The notes under the pieces are model-generated. The model was not told the DNA's origin, made no database searches, and worked only from the letters and a program-made list of their open reading frames with translations. The position numbers were made by a program, and so were the translations under genes. Shown piece after piece: positions 2,867 through 21,982 of a stretch of 64,000 bases of DNA (its first letter is position 1; every line of letters starts with the position of its first letter). Origin of the DNA: Picosynechococcus sp. PCC 7117 (GTDB lineage: Bacteria; Cyanobacteriota; Cyanobacteriia; Cyanobacteriales; MRBY01); NCBI RefSeq assembly GCF_001693275.1, contig NZ_CP016477.1:1612001-1676000 (forward strand), read 5' to 3'.

Positions 2867-3298
2867 ATGTGGTTAAATTTCCTGGCATTATTGCCCTCAA
2901 CCGTCTTAACGGTGTTATTGATCGCGATCGCCTTTTTGAGGTTCTATGACCAAACCGACTTTGAATTCCTCGGACTCATTGCCAACCCCAGACAGTGGAG
3001 CAATGGATTCACTGTGGCAGCCCTCCTGGCTACATTGGCTAATTTCGGCGTTGAGTGGAACCGTCGAAATCGAGAAACAAACCGCTTGGCTGAAGAAAAG
3101 CAACGAAGAAGCGAGGATCGCGCACGAGCAGAGACTGAAAACGCTCAGAGAAGAGAACGCGAGGCTCGCCGAGCTAGAATCGAAACTCGATGCCGTATTG
3201 CCGAAATACAGTTCCAGCTCGACTCGACCGACCGAAACCGACGCGCCCTAAGGGAAGCGTTGGCTCTGCTGGCGGAATATGGCGACCTGTTCTCCTAA
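2867..3298 (+). CDS. Two-helix membrane protein, diverged fourth member of the tandem family at 20.6-21.9 kb (frame A)
   Basis: A 143-residue protein with two hydrophobic segments (about residues 3-24 and 48-63), then a long Arg/Glu-rich, probably helical tail ending in LLAEYGDLFS. It is clearly related to the three tandem proteins at 20565-21884: shared FLALLP start, LRFY motif, GVEW/GLEW after the second helix, a REREARRARI/RERAARRARI stretch and EYG near the end. As in those copies, a second long frame (+1, 2946-3251) runs through most of the gene. The function is unknown. The membrane topology is a prediction by eye. It sits among accessory genes (DUF29, Uma2). Confidence 0.6.
   Translation: MWLNFLALLPSTVLTVLLIAIAFLRFYDQTDFEFLGLIANPRQWSNGFTVAALLATLANFGVEWNRRNRETNRLAEEKQRRSEDRARAETENAQRREREARRARIETRCRIAEIQFQLDSTDRNRRALREALALLAEYGDLFS
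2946..3251 (+). CDS. Overlapping +1-frame coiled-coil reading frame (frame B of the family)
   Basis: A 101-codon frame nested in 2867-3298. It begins with ATG four bases after a GAGG. The C-terminal half is coiled-coil-like (RLKTLREENARLAELESKL), with leucines spaced seven and three/four apart. It matches frame B of the tandem copies at WLISALSGT(V/L)EIE and EN(A/E)RLA(E/V)LESK. The conservation across diverged copies, despite being out of frame with the membrane protein, is why I list it. Whether it is translated on its own, fused by frameshifting, or not at all is unknown. Confidence 0.3.
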   Translation: MTKPTLNSSDSLPTPDSGAMDSLWQPSWLHWLISALSGTVEIEKQTAWLKKSNEEARIAHEQRLKTLREENARLAELESKLDAVLPKYSSSSTRPTETDAP

Positions 3299-3369: not shown

Positions 3370-3801
3370 ATGGAACAACTTTACGAAAGAGACTTTAGTC
3401 AATGGGCAGAAACGATGGCCGATCTTCTTGCCGCTGGGGATTTTATGGCCCTTGATATTGAAAACTTGGTAGAAGAGGTGCGGGATTTGTCCAAGCGAGA
3501 ACGCGATCACCTCCTTAGCAGTATCCGGCTGATTTTACACTACCTATTAAAGTGGGATCATCAGCCCCAAAAACGGTCTCGCAGTTGGCGAAATACGATT
3601 GATCGAGAACGAAGTAATATTGAACTATATCTTGAGGACAGTCCGAGTCTGCGGCGCTATCTTAATGATGAGGTATCCCTAGCAAAAATATATCGGCTTG
3701 CCCGTGCTGACGCGATCCGGGAAACGGATTTAGATTTTCCTAAAGATTGCCCCTACGATATCGAAGATGTGTTAAGTCGCGTTATTTCCCTTGGTGAGTG
3801 A
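3370..3801 (+). CDS. DUF29 family protein
   Basis: A 143-residue acidic helical protein that matches the cyanobacterial DUF29 family. It starts with YERDFSQWAETMADLLAAGDF, followed by DIENLVEEVRDLSKRER and a central HYLLKWDHQP block, ending in a DLDFPKDCPYDIEDVL motif. DUF29 proteins are common in many copies in cyanobacteria and have no established biochemical role. The length is normal and no frameshift is seen. The next gene is a Uma2-type nuclease homologue, another multi-copy cyanobacterial accessory family. Confidence 0.85.
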   Translation: MEQLYERDFSQWAETMADLLAAGDFMALDIENLVEEVRDLSKRERDHLLSSIRLILHYLLKWDHQPQKRSRSWRNTIDRERSNIELYLEDSPSLRRYLNDEVSLAKIYRLARADAIRETDLDFPKDCPYDIEDVLSRVISLGE

Positions 3802-19929: not shown

Positions 19930-20571
19930 ATGCTGCGTTGCGCAAAAAACTACCGCAAACCGTGGGTAATCTTTACTACCACGAGCCTCATTTTTCTTAT
20001 TGGGTTTATTCCCGTCCGCTTAATTTTCGCACAGATTCAAGCTCCTACACCTCAAGCCATCCTAGCCCTTGGAGGTGGTTTAGGTCGGGAAGAATTTGCC
20101 GCAAGCTTTGCCCAGCAGCACCCAACCCTCGACATTTGGGTGTCCTCCGGTGTGCCTACCCTCCAGGCCAAAGCCATTTTCCAACAAGCCGCCATTCCTG
20201 AGAACCGTCTTCATATCGATCGCCGCGCCGTGGATACTGTCACCAATTTCACTTCCCTCGTTAAAGACTTTGGCGATCGCCACATGCAGCACGTTTACCT
20301 AATCACCTCTGATTTTCACATGCGCCGCGCCCAGGCGATCGCCTTCTTTGTTTTCGGCAGTCGCGGCATTATCACCACCCCCATCCCCATTCCCTCCAAC
20401 CAACCTAACGAAACCCTCTGGCATGTCTCCCATGATATCGGGCGAGCAATCCTCTGGATCATCACCGGCCGTACCGGAGCCAGCCTACATCCCCAGTTGG
20501 GAGCAGCATTTCCTTCAAGCAGCCTGTACATATTTCACCAAGTCAGAAAGGTTAAAATGGGATCATGGTAA
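19930..20571 (+). CDS. YdcF family protein (DUF218)
   Basis: A 213-residue protein with one N-terminal membrane anchor (about residues 12-34) and a DUF218/YdcF domain: AILALGGGLGREEF, IDRRAVDTVTN and YLITSDFHMRRAQAIAFFVFG. Members are linked to envelope polysaccharide or vancomycin-related phenotypes but have no settled reaction. The stop codon overlaps the ATG of the first tandem repeat gene (ATGGTAA). A segment of this gene (20334-20382) reappears after the third repeat. Confidence 0.8.
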   Translation: MLRCAKNYRKPWVIFTTTSLIFLIGFIPVRLIFAQIQAPTPQAILALGGGLGREEFAASFAQQHPTLDIWVSSGVPTLQAKAIFQQAAIPENRLHIDRRAVDTVTNFTSLVKDFGDRHMQHVYLITSDFHMRRAQAIAFFVFGSRGIITTPIPIPSNQPNETLWHVSHDIGRAILWIITGRTGASLHPQLGAAFPSSSLYIFHQVRKVKMGSW

Positions 20572-20954
20572 GCTTTTTAGCCCTGTTACCCCGTGCCCTC
20601 ACCACCTTTCTCTATGCCGTTGCCGCCCTCCTGAGGTTTTATGCCGACACCGACACCACCCCAATCCAACTCTTCCCCCTCACCATTCTCCAGTGGAGTT
20701 TCCTGGCGTTCGCGTTGGGCACAGCGGCTCTCCTGGCTAATCTCGGCCTTGAGTGGCACGCTGGAAATCAAAGCCGATACCGAGAGATTGAAAAACGAGA
20801 CCGAGCAGCTCAAGAAAGAGAACGAGCGGCTCGCCGTGCTCGAATCCAAAATCGAGGCTTTATTCTCCAAACACGGTATCAACTTACCCCTGGCCGAGAA
20901 ACCGGAGCAGCCCTAACCGATTTTCTCAGTTTTCTTCAGGAATATGGGGAGTAA
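20565..20954 (+). CDS. Tandem family copy 1, two-helix membrane protein (frame A)
   Basis: A 129-residue protein of unknown function. Two hydrophobic helices (about 3-23 and 40-62, the second starting LQWSFLAFALG) are followed by a short Arg/Glu-rich helix and a C-terminal FLSFLQEYGE. The first half and the last 45 residues are nearly identical in the two following copies; only the charged middle differs in length. The ATG overlaps the ydcF stop by seven bases. A +1 frame (20641-20916) runs through most of the gene. Confidence 0.6.
   Translation: MVSFLALLPRALTTFLYAVAALLRFYADTDTTPIQLFPLTILQWSFLAFALGTAALLANLGLEWHAGNQSRYREIEKRDRAAQERERAARRARIQNRGFILQTRYQLTPGRETGAALTDFLSFLQEYGE
20641..20916 (+). 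CDS. Overlapping coiled-coil frame of copy 1 (frame B)
   Basis: A 91-codon +1 frame starting at an ATG that follows GAGG by four bases. After a Ser/Pro-rich start it encodes a leucine-zipper-like helix (TERLKNETEQLKKENERL, then LAVLESKIEAL) with Leu/Ile at heptad a and d positions. Of the two frames, this one carries the clearer coiled coil. Translation is unproven. Confidence 0.3.
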   Translation: MPTPTPPQSNSSPSPFSSGVSWRSRWAQRLSWLISALSGTLEIKADTERLKNETEQLKKENERLAVLESKIEALFSKHGINLPLAEKPEQP

Positions 20955-20987
20955 AGAAGGCGATCGCCTTTTGGCTAAACTAAAACC

Positions 20988-21440
20988 ATGGTTAGTTTTC
21001 TCGCTCTACTGCCCCGTGCCCTCACCACCTTTCTCTATGCTGTTGCCGCCCTCCTGAGGTTCTATGCCGACACCGACACCACCCCAATCCAACTCTTCCC
21101 CCTCACCATCCTCCAGTGGAGTTTCCTGGCGTTCGCGTTGGGGACAGCGGCTCTCCTGGCTAATCTCGGCCTTGAGTGGCACGCTGGAAATCGAAGCCGA
21201 TACCGAGAGGCTGAAGAAAGAGAACGCGAAACTCGACGCGATGCTCTTGCGGACGAAGAACGACGTAAAGCAGATCGAGAAAGAGACCAAGCAGCTCAAG
21301 AAAGAGAACGAGCGGCTCGCCGTGCTCGAATCCAAAATCGAGGCTTTATTCTCCAAACACGGTATCAACTTACCCCTGGCCGAGAAACCGGAGCAGCCCT
21401 AGCAGACTTTCTCAGTTTTCTTCAGGAATATGGGGAGTAA
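20988..21440 (+). CDS. Tandem family copy 2, two-helix membrane protein (frame A)
   Basis: A 150-residue member, the longest of the three. Its first 68 residues match copy 1 apart from one Gln/Arg change at the end of that stretch. The charged segment is longer by 21 residues (AEERERETRRDALADEERR region), which is three heptads in the overlapping frame. The C-terminus (RGFILQTRYQLTPGRETGAA, then FLSFLQEYGE) is conserved. It starts 33 bases after copy 1. The function is unknown. Confidence 0.6.
   Translation: MVSFLALLPRALTTFLYAVAALLRFYADTDTTPIQLFPLTILQWSFLAFALGTAALLANLGLEWHAGNRSRYREAEERERETRRDALADEERRKADRERDQAAQERERAARRARIQNRGFILQTRYQLTPGRETGAALADFLSFLQEYGE
21064..21402 (+). CDS. Overlapping coiled-coil frame of copy 2 (frame B)
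   Basis: A 112-codon +1 frame with the same GAGG-N4-ATG start. The coiled coil is extended by three heptads relative to copy 1 (ERLKKENAKLDAMLLRTK, then VKQIEKETKQL). The heptad register is kept on both sides of the insertion. Translation is unproven. Confidence 0.3.
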   Translation: MPTPTPPQSNSSPSPSSSGVSWRSRWGQRLSWLISALSGTLEIEADTERLKKENAKLDAMLLRTKNDVKQIEKETKQLKKENERLAVLESKIEALFSKHGINLPLAEKPEQP

Positions 21441-21473
21441 AGAAGGCGATCGCCTTTTGGCTAAACTAAAACC

Positions 21474-21884
21474 ATGGTTAGTTTTCTCGCTCTACTGCCC
21501 CGTGCCCTCACCACCTTTCTCTATGCCGTTGCTGCCCTCCTGAGGTTCTATGCCGACACCGATACAATCCCAATCCAACTCTTCCCCCTCACCATCCTCC
21601 AGTGGAGTTTCCTGGCGTTCACGTTGGGGACAACGGCTCTCCTGGCTAATCTCGGCCTTGAGTGGCACGCTGGAAATCGAGCAAAGAACGAGAGAACACG
21701 AGCAGAGGACGAAGCAAATCGAGAACGAGATCGAGCAAATCAAGAAAGAGAACGAGCGGCTCGCCGTGCTCGAATCCAAAATCGAGGCTTTATTCTCCAA
21801 ACACGGTATCAACTTACCCCTGGCCGAGAAACCGGAGCAGCCCTAGCAGACTTTCTCAGTTTTCTTCAAGAATATGGGGAGTAA
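21474..21884 (+). CDS. Tandem family copy 3, two-helix membrane protein (frame A)
   Basis: A 136-residue member, seven residues longer than copy 1. The membrane helices and C-terminus are nearly identical to copies 1 and 2; the charged segment reads NRAKNERTRAEDEANRERD. Its stop runs into a long A-run, HIP1 and T-run palindrome (21883-21904). The function is unknown. Confidence 0.6.
   Translation: MVSFLALLPRALTTFLYAVAALLRFYADTDTIPIQLFPLTILQWSFLAFTLGTTALLANLGLEWHAGNRAKNERTRAEDEANRERDRANQERERAARRARIQNRGFILQTRYQLTPGRETGAALADFLSFLQEYGE
21550..21846 (+). CDS. Overlapping coiled-coil frame of copy 3 (frame B)
   Basis: A 98-codon +1 frame, again with GAGG-N4-ATG. The helical part (REHEQRTKQIENEIEQIKK, then ENERLAVLESKIEAL) is one heptad longer than in copy 1. 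Translation is unproven. Confidence 0.3.
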   Translation: MPTPIQSQSNSSPSPSSSGVSWRSRWGQRLSWLISALSGTLEIEQRTREHEQRTKQIENEIEQIKKENERLAVLESKIEALFSKHGINLPLAEKPEQP

Positions 21885-21904
21885 AAAAGGCGATCGCCTT
21901 TTTT
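21883..21904. terminator. 22-bp perfect palindrome: A6, HIP1 core, T6
   Basis: Six A residues, GGCGATCGCC and six T residues form a perfect palindrome directly at the stop of copy 3. It could work as an intrinsic terminator in either direction, though such AT-flanked HIP1 palindromes may have another role. Confidence 0.4.
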
Positions 21905-21937
21905 GTCTTCGGCCATTAAGACATTATCACCATCCCT
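21889..21937 (+). repeat. Relic duplicate of an internal ydcF segment
   Basis: The stretch starting GGCGATCGCCTT and containing TCTTCGGCC and ACATTATCACCA matches 20334-20382 in the YdcF gene at most positions. It encodes the same AIAFFVFG peptide before a stop. It suggests that the three repeats were duplicated into, or together with, the end of ydcF. Confidence 0.5.
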
Positions 21938-21982
21938 GCCTTTGAATTTTCGCTCAATTTGCTCAATTTAAAGATTGCTGTT

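Follow-up and report, generated by a model that had tools for sequence, protein, structure and literature searches.

Four related genes in a window of 64,000 nucleotides (the whole stretch of DNA analysed) from the chromosome of the cyanobacterium Picosynechococcus sp. PCC 7117 very probably encode two proteins each, the second (B) nested within the first (A) on the same strand, in the +1 frame, and starting at an ATG that coincides with the LRFY(D) motif of A. Judging from sequence comparisons, this protein-coding pair would be conserved across Cyanobacteria, where it is multicopy and often found in tandem. In the relatives compared here, both frames are constrained as proteins, the start of B is conserved and stop codons are avoided in B; internal initiation would be the route by which B is reached, and the helices of both proteins would lie in the cytoplasm. 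The original prediction had described three genes in tandem, plus a diverged one at 2867-3298, each with a membrane-protein frame A and an overlapping frame B, and the listing of open reading frames (ORFs) confirms this layout, with a +1 relation in 4/4 window copies and B frames of 91-112 aa:

20565..20954, + strand: copy 1, frame A, membrane protein of 129 aa (ORF listing)
20633..20636, + strand: GAGG ahead of the copy 1 B start, SD-like, spacing 4 (raw sequence)
20641..20916, + strand: copy 1, nested frame B, coiled-coil protein of 91 aa (ORF listing)
20988..21440, + strand: copy 2, frame A, 150 aa (ORF listing, AlphaFold)
21056..21059, + strand: GAGG ahead of the copy 2 B start (raw sequence)
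21064..21402, + strand: copy 2, nested frame B, 112 aa (ORF listing, AlphaFold)
21474..21884, + strand: copy 3, frame A, 136 aa (ORF listing)
21542..21545, + strand: GAGG ahead of the copy 3 B start (raw sequence)
21550..21846, + strand: copy 3, nested frame B, 98 aa (ORF listing)
2867..3298, + strand: diverged copy, frame A, 143 aa (ORF listing, raw sequence)
2938..2941, + strand: GAGG ahead of the diverged copy B start (raw sequence)
2946..3251, + strand: diverged copy, nested frame B, 101 aa (ORF listing, raw sequence)

In these copies the B ATG lies within the LRFY motif of A, read in +1. The codon differences between copy 2 and the diverged copy that first suggested selection on B (GGC/GGA, ACG/ACC and CTG/GTC) are present in the raw sequence and do change A (His/Asn, Ala/Arg and Gly/Arg, respectively). 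A further set quoted for the LESK stretch (CTC/CTA, TCC/TCG and GCT/GCC) is also there, but that stretch holds unlisted changes that alter B as well (Val/Glu, Ile/Leu and Glu/Asp). The window genome has one further copy outside the window (C1:441498-442028, locus L043). Antisense ORFs of 98-120 aa occur in the three tandem copies (window 21006-21368, minus strand, and equivalents). To the eye, the sequence beyond copy 3 (window 21880-21960) is similar to a section (20335-20390) of the DUF218 gene that precedes the tandem array, as if the array had a duplication on its two sides.

Relatives, copies and neighbours

Profile searches with A matched 26/388 genomes of the order and, with a broader profile, 27/386 genomes of a phylum sample, while those with B matched 25/388 and 25/386, respectively. 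One set of 23 relatives carries cyanobacterial names, among them Synechocystis, Nodosilinea, Leptolyngbya and Chrysosporum, and the two-frame pattern, which was at first known from four copies, extends across the cyanobacterial phylum. A second species of the genus of the window has 10 A matches (14 pieces in another search), and a search of four other genomes of that genus found the family absent. One genome (G156) was matched by A, in one short piece, and not by B in the order-level searches; G551, G580 and G656 were matched by A and not by B in the phylum sample. The B profile had missed these last three, since all eight A matches in four genomes of the distant family f41 (G551, G580 and G656 plus four places in G576) have an open +1 frame with a Ser/Pro start and a coil; at L240, one of these eight, the codon at the B start position is one for Leu. 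At the f41 loci L238 and L241-L244, the middle of B is another conserved block, SLPRWRxFLxxLNWRRDP, instead of WLISALSGTVEIE, with the nesting retained. At the distant loci L180-L199, 27/30 ORFs matched by the B profile overlap an ORF matched by the A profile, 27/27 of them in +1, and three show no overlap. The core set comprises 72 distinct full-length A genes from 123 ORF hits (loci L043-L071, L100-L139 and the window), partial and repeated ORFs being left out; here, as in all counts for the family, the genes are related and are not independent samples.

Tandem arrays contain up to 8 recognised genes, and those examined are flanked by unrelated genes, often across gaps of tens of bases. These neighbours, which include glycosyltransferases, a hexapeptide transferase, DUF218, DUF29, Uma2, MFS and PDDEXK_3 (Pfam was run on 20 chosen of the 63 flanking genes listed), together with what we take to be an RluD-like gene, are heterogeneous, with no constant partner gene among the examined flanks. 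The window array presumably has a DUF218 gene on one side and a hexapeptide transferase on the other, within a region of glycosyltransferases (most of these names are our own assignments from the sequences). DUF29 genes (window 3370-3801, L216 and L220) and Uma2 genes (L212, and L201 by eye) recur beside arrays; both families are multicopy in cyanobacteria.

This setting bears on what the pair might be for. A selfish or conflict module of toxin-antitoxin type, with A as a hairpin membrane protein and B as a coil, would be compatible with the nested pair and would fit its patchy distribution in the order, the size of its arrays, the presence of DUF29, Uma2 and PDDEXK_3 among such varied neighbours, and the existence of decayed copies. 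No toxin, antitoxin or defence family, however, has a match that passes its curated cut-off or covers protein A or B, and we regard such a role as possible but unlikely.

The start of B and the route to it

In all 72 full-length A genes, the +1 frame contains an ATG for B where A encodes LRFY(D), or at the equivalent place. The Tyr codon of A over this ATG is TAT in 70/72 genes (67/87 elsewhere in the same genes), and in the two copies with TAC, both at L056, the ATG is shifted one codon later, not lost. Four divergent members (two at L112, the others at L130 and L131) have the ATG without the LRFY motif, while at L180, L183 and L185 of the distant family f41 it is found at another codon of A; L180 additionally has decayed pieces without a clear start. 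Upstream, GAGG or GAGA is common, and Arg is encoded by AGG/AGA in 50/68 cases at LRFY, against 37/117 after the overlap and 56/560 in the window genes. The energy of the anti-SD duplex before the B ATG averages -3.30 vs -1.23 expected (an expectation built from the codon usage of the window and applied to all genomes), and strong SD-like pairing (-4 or below) is seen in 19/47 distinct upstream stretches only, with a median P of 0.335, making the SD-like signal ahead of B suggestive but not universal.

The conserved ATG, often with GAGG/GAGA before it, would favour internal initiation over frameshifting. On a single mRNA with two starts, ribosomes loading at the start of A would make the membrane hairpin protein and others, starting 76-79 nt downstream (in the window copies) at the B ATG, would make the coil protein; the two would thus be produced next to each other, and their helices would match in length.

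The original prediction had offered two readings, overprinting or a frameshift fusion, and it is the nested gene that has come out better supported. Programmed +1 frameshifting near a rare Arg codon, joining the first transmembrane (TM) segment of A to the coil of B in a membrane-tethered coiled coil, would account for the enrichment of AGG/AGA exactly at the boundary between the frames, which is also where constraint on B begins. That boundary, however, is the ATG itself, which is kept in 72/72 genes, displaced in two and moved to another A codon at L180, L183 and L185; the Leu, Arg and Phe codons around it all vary, and there is therefore no invariant slippery heptamer. We consider such a fusion improbable.

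Constraint on two overlapping frames

The B ATG lies within a stop-free stretch of 78-197 codons in 71/72 genes, the exception (L049|1600) being a copy with shifts. Synonymous shuffling of the codons of A within genes predicts 181.1 B stops over the 72 members vs 0 seen; the B spans are the longest open ones, so that zero stops is partly built in, but the contrast with the expectation is not. Upstream of the B ATG, the same +1 frame has 222 stops in 1795 codons. For the window copies, with the codon usage of the window, 2.5-3.0 B stops are expected per copy and the chance of none is 0.02-0.06. Over 7956 codons of these spans, which were picked as stop-free in +1, there are 577 stops in the +2 frame and 49, 144 and 308 in the antisense frames. 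The antisense frame in the codon register of A is stop-free in 41/71 genes, which is probably due to the few TTA/CTA/TCA codons that A has there; composition accounts for part of the openness, but not for that of the +1 frame. Stops in the B frame of many diverged homologues had been named at the outset as the sign that would speak against B, and only 3/97 copies are odd or broken.

How the two frames fare in broken copies can be compared directly. Full-length B ORFs, 111 of them distinct, were taken from loci L043-L071, L100-L139 and L180-L199 and from the window, and the A frame carries a stop in 13; in one of these 13, L123|4985, other sequence stands in place of the 5' part of A. At the same loci, the matched B region is without a stop in 94/97 full-length A ORFs (3 of the 94 being matched by the profile in the C-terminal part only), and the remaining three are L128|844, which has lost an internal segment, L139|659, which contains a run of N, and the relic L049|1600. 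With each set selected for one intact frame, Fisher's test of broken A vs broken B gives 0.034 if all three are counted as B losses and 0.0018 if one is; the nested B seems to be at least as constrained as its host frame. At least 12 of the 13 broken-A copies (those other than L065) are in genomes or contigs with other copies, from which A could be supplied in trans.

Two kinds of unusual copy deserve description. At L049:1619-2086 (+), which is probably a relic, the A frame runs into B coil sequence and then back, a natural double shift. At L125 and L126 (G100), a short insertion, where B reads ..SAIAFGGERSSIAQ.., leaves B open, with a stop close by in A; a GCGATCGC-type palindrome may be part of this insertion.

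Selection was assessed mainly from dSN (changes silent in A and replacing in B), in the 704 of 2485 pairs that share 60-97 % identity in A. This measure is saturated both before and after B; inside, it is lowest in the neck (0.16) and TM2 (0.18) and higher in the shared C-terminal part (0.48), the coil (0.51) and the N-terminal part of B (0.54); the uncorrected SN distance is 0.78 before, 0.29 inside and 0.87 after B. The W-type group (659 pairs) shows the same SN pattern, while the V-type group alone (37 pairs) has SN distances of 0.43 before, 0.21 inside and 0.99 after, with a modest drop at the B start. At the third codon positions of A, diversity is 0.47-0.74 ahead of the ATG, with the exception of one Trp column; it drops to 0.05 at the ATG and is 0.05-0.11 along the ANFGVEW stretch, intermediate in the N-terminal part of B and in the coil, and 0.35-0.72 past the B stop. 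The N-terminal 16 codons of B are only moderately constrained (dNN/dNS 0.69, CI 0.39-1.22), but since values of 0.5-0.6 are found for this ratio outside the overlap as well, it was not used as the main test, and the case rests on dSN. In the +2 control, dNN/dNS is 1.2-2.8, as in a frame without constraint, and dSN dips within B here too, an unavoidable effect of counting the same A-silent sites. The collapse of dSN, the third-base diversity and the SN distances bear out the earlier claim that B is under purifying selection: far from being unconstrained, it is strongly depleted of A-silent changes that would alter it. Purifying selection is found on both frames across the shared DNA, and the diverged relatives have kept the start codon (72/72) and the open frame (71/72).

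These results bear on two further readings. It is very improbable that A alone is a gene and that B is kept open by codon bias and purine-rich heptad repeats: low-complexity E/R-rich DNA does give charged sequence in several frames, and the antisense frame is often free of stops too, but the collapse of dSN is bounded by the ATG and the stop of B, none of the 181 expected stops is seen, and B remains open in the 13/111 copies in which A is broken by a stop. Just as hard to credit is an RNA structure or DNA element, instead of a second protein, as what constrains the silent sites of A: doubly silent (SS) changes are rarer inside the overlap (0.62, CI 0.40-0.85) than before (1.60) or after it (1.02), but they are twice the B-altering ones inside (0.62 vs 0.29), which argues against such an element as sole cause, and the ATG, the stop avoidance and the conserved amphipathic coil are signs of a protein. 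In the overlap, proteins thus appear to be constrained more than RNA.

Predicted proteins and known systems

In the AlphaFold models, A has helices at 3-27, 41-128 and 132-149 (mean pLDDT 83) and B at 22-38 and 40-99 (pLDDT 77). By eye, the first helix of A and the start of its second would be TM segments, and A is predicted to have two TM helices and a long charged helix, with a helical hairpin at its C-terminus. B begins with a Ser/Thr/Pro-rich part, followed by a helix that contains Trp and by a leucine-zipper-like coil. Over the shared coil DNA (68 genes), LIVMFWY residues make up 22 % of B, with a periodicity near 104 degrees, and 7 % of A. The heptads of B have L/I at d and N/T at a, which is the pattern of parallel coiled coils. 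Linker length falls into two residue classes mod 7 in 63/72 genes, five of the other nine linkers fit two added 11-residue units (our own count), and coil length changes mostly by 7- and 11-residue steps. The longest B (195 aa, L124:889-1473, + strand) is built from several repeats of an 18-residue unit (7+11), and A follows in step.

The code itself ties the two sequences together: B Leu falls on A Ala or Thr in 76 % of cases, B Glu coincides with A Arg in 95 % and B Lys with A Glu in 76 %, and the mean same-codon charge product of A and B is -0.40. Mean g-e' charges are -0.11 for an A-B heterodimer, +0.27 for A-A and -0.12 for B-B, and by these charges the heterodimer beats the mean of the homodimers in 38/70 genes (10 ties); charge matching favours A-B over A-A but not over B-B, and is not decisive. 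That A and B act jointly at the membrane is a tentative proposal, the weakest step of our reading and one that stands apart from the nested pair itself. Bolder, and rather doubtful, is the idea that the overlap would be a device, in which a single heptad/hendecad run of DNA encodes two equally long helices, so that each gain or loss of 21 or 33 nt changes the length of both together, while the +1 code sets B Leu on A Ala/Thr and gives opposite charges; A and B would then pair at the membrane and diversify as matched sets between tandem copies.

Pfam and NCBIfam gave sub-cut-off matches only, for both A and B, and searches with A against the PDB had a best E of 0.049 by sequence and 5.1 by Foldseek. 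With PADLOC, we saw and set aside scattered matches to long coil proteins, in at most 4/27 B members (LmuB). Matches in PHROGs were to phrog_3671 (10/27 B proteins, best E 2.2e-6) and phrog_1536 (6/27), both of function not known, to the Rz-like spanin phrog_739 (4/27 B) and to the holin phrog_20 (3/12 A, best 0.0017), while Rz-like profiles matched 4/27 B proteins (best E 2.9e-4) and, for two families, 1/12 A each (best 0.0049). We read the PHROGs and Rz-like matches as probable coil or helix similarity.

In phage lambda, Rz is a host ORF with TM and coil, and Rz1 lies in its +1 frame. The A/B pair is like these spanins, of which Rz1 is nested within Rz (according to the accessible part of PMC5418858), in that a small gene is nested on the same strand, in another frame of a host ORF with TM and coil. 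Unlike Rz1, however, B has no lipobox, and Cys in 3/72 B proteins only, which is not the make-up of a lipoprotein; unlike Rz, A is predicted to have two TM helices. A further difference from both is that A/B relatives were found neither in plasmid or phage records (with the diverged A as query) nor in viral contigs (with B and A alignments as queries), and that the examined flanks are chromosomal and varied, not those of a lysis cassette. The antisense overlapping genes of E. coli O157:H7, called probably evolutionarily young in the part of PMC9927249 available to us, resemble A/B as a long overlap of two bacterial chromosomal genes, but A and B are on the same strand, multicopy and phylum-wide. 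Annotated same-strand phase-1 overlaps, which have the strand and phase of A/B, show a phase bias that is explained by composition without selection in the accessible portion of PMC2542354, whereas both A/B frames show selection.

A literature search found no paper describing the A/B family. To our knowledge, a same-strand nested pair that is phylum-wide and present in many copies per genome is unusual, and the reading of DNA in two frames is rarely reported outside viruses. Long out-of-frame pairs of bacterial chromosomal genes are reported as few (PMC9927249, in the same part). The A/B family is a natural replicate set for the evolution of two proteins on one DNA, in which a one-base change of Tyr TAT to TAC, silent in A, separates the two products, and the pair represents a class of genes that annotation programs tend to suppress.
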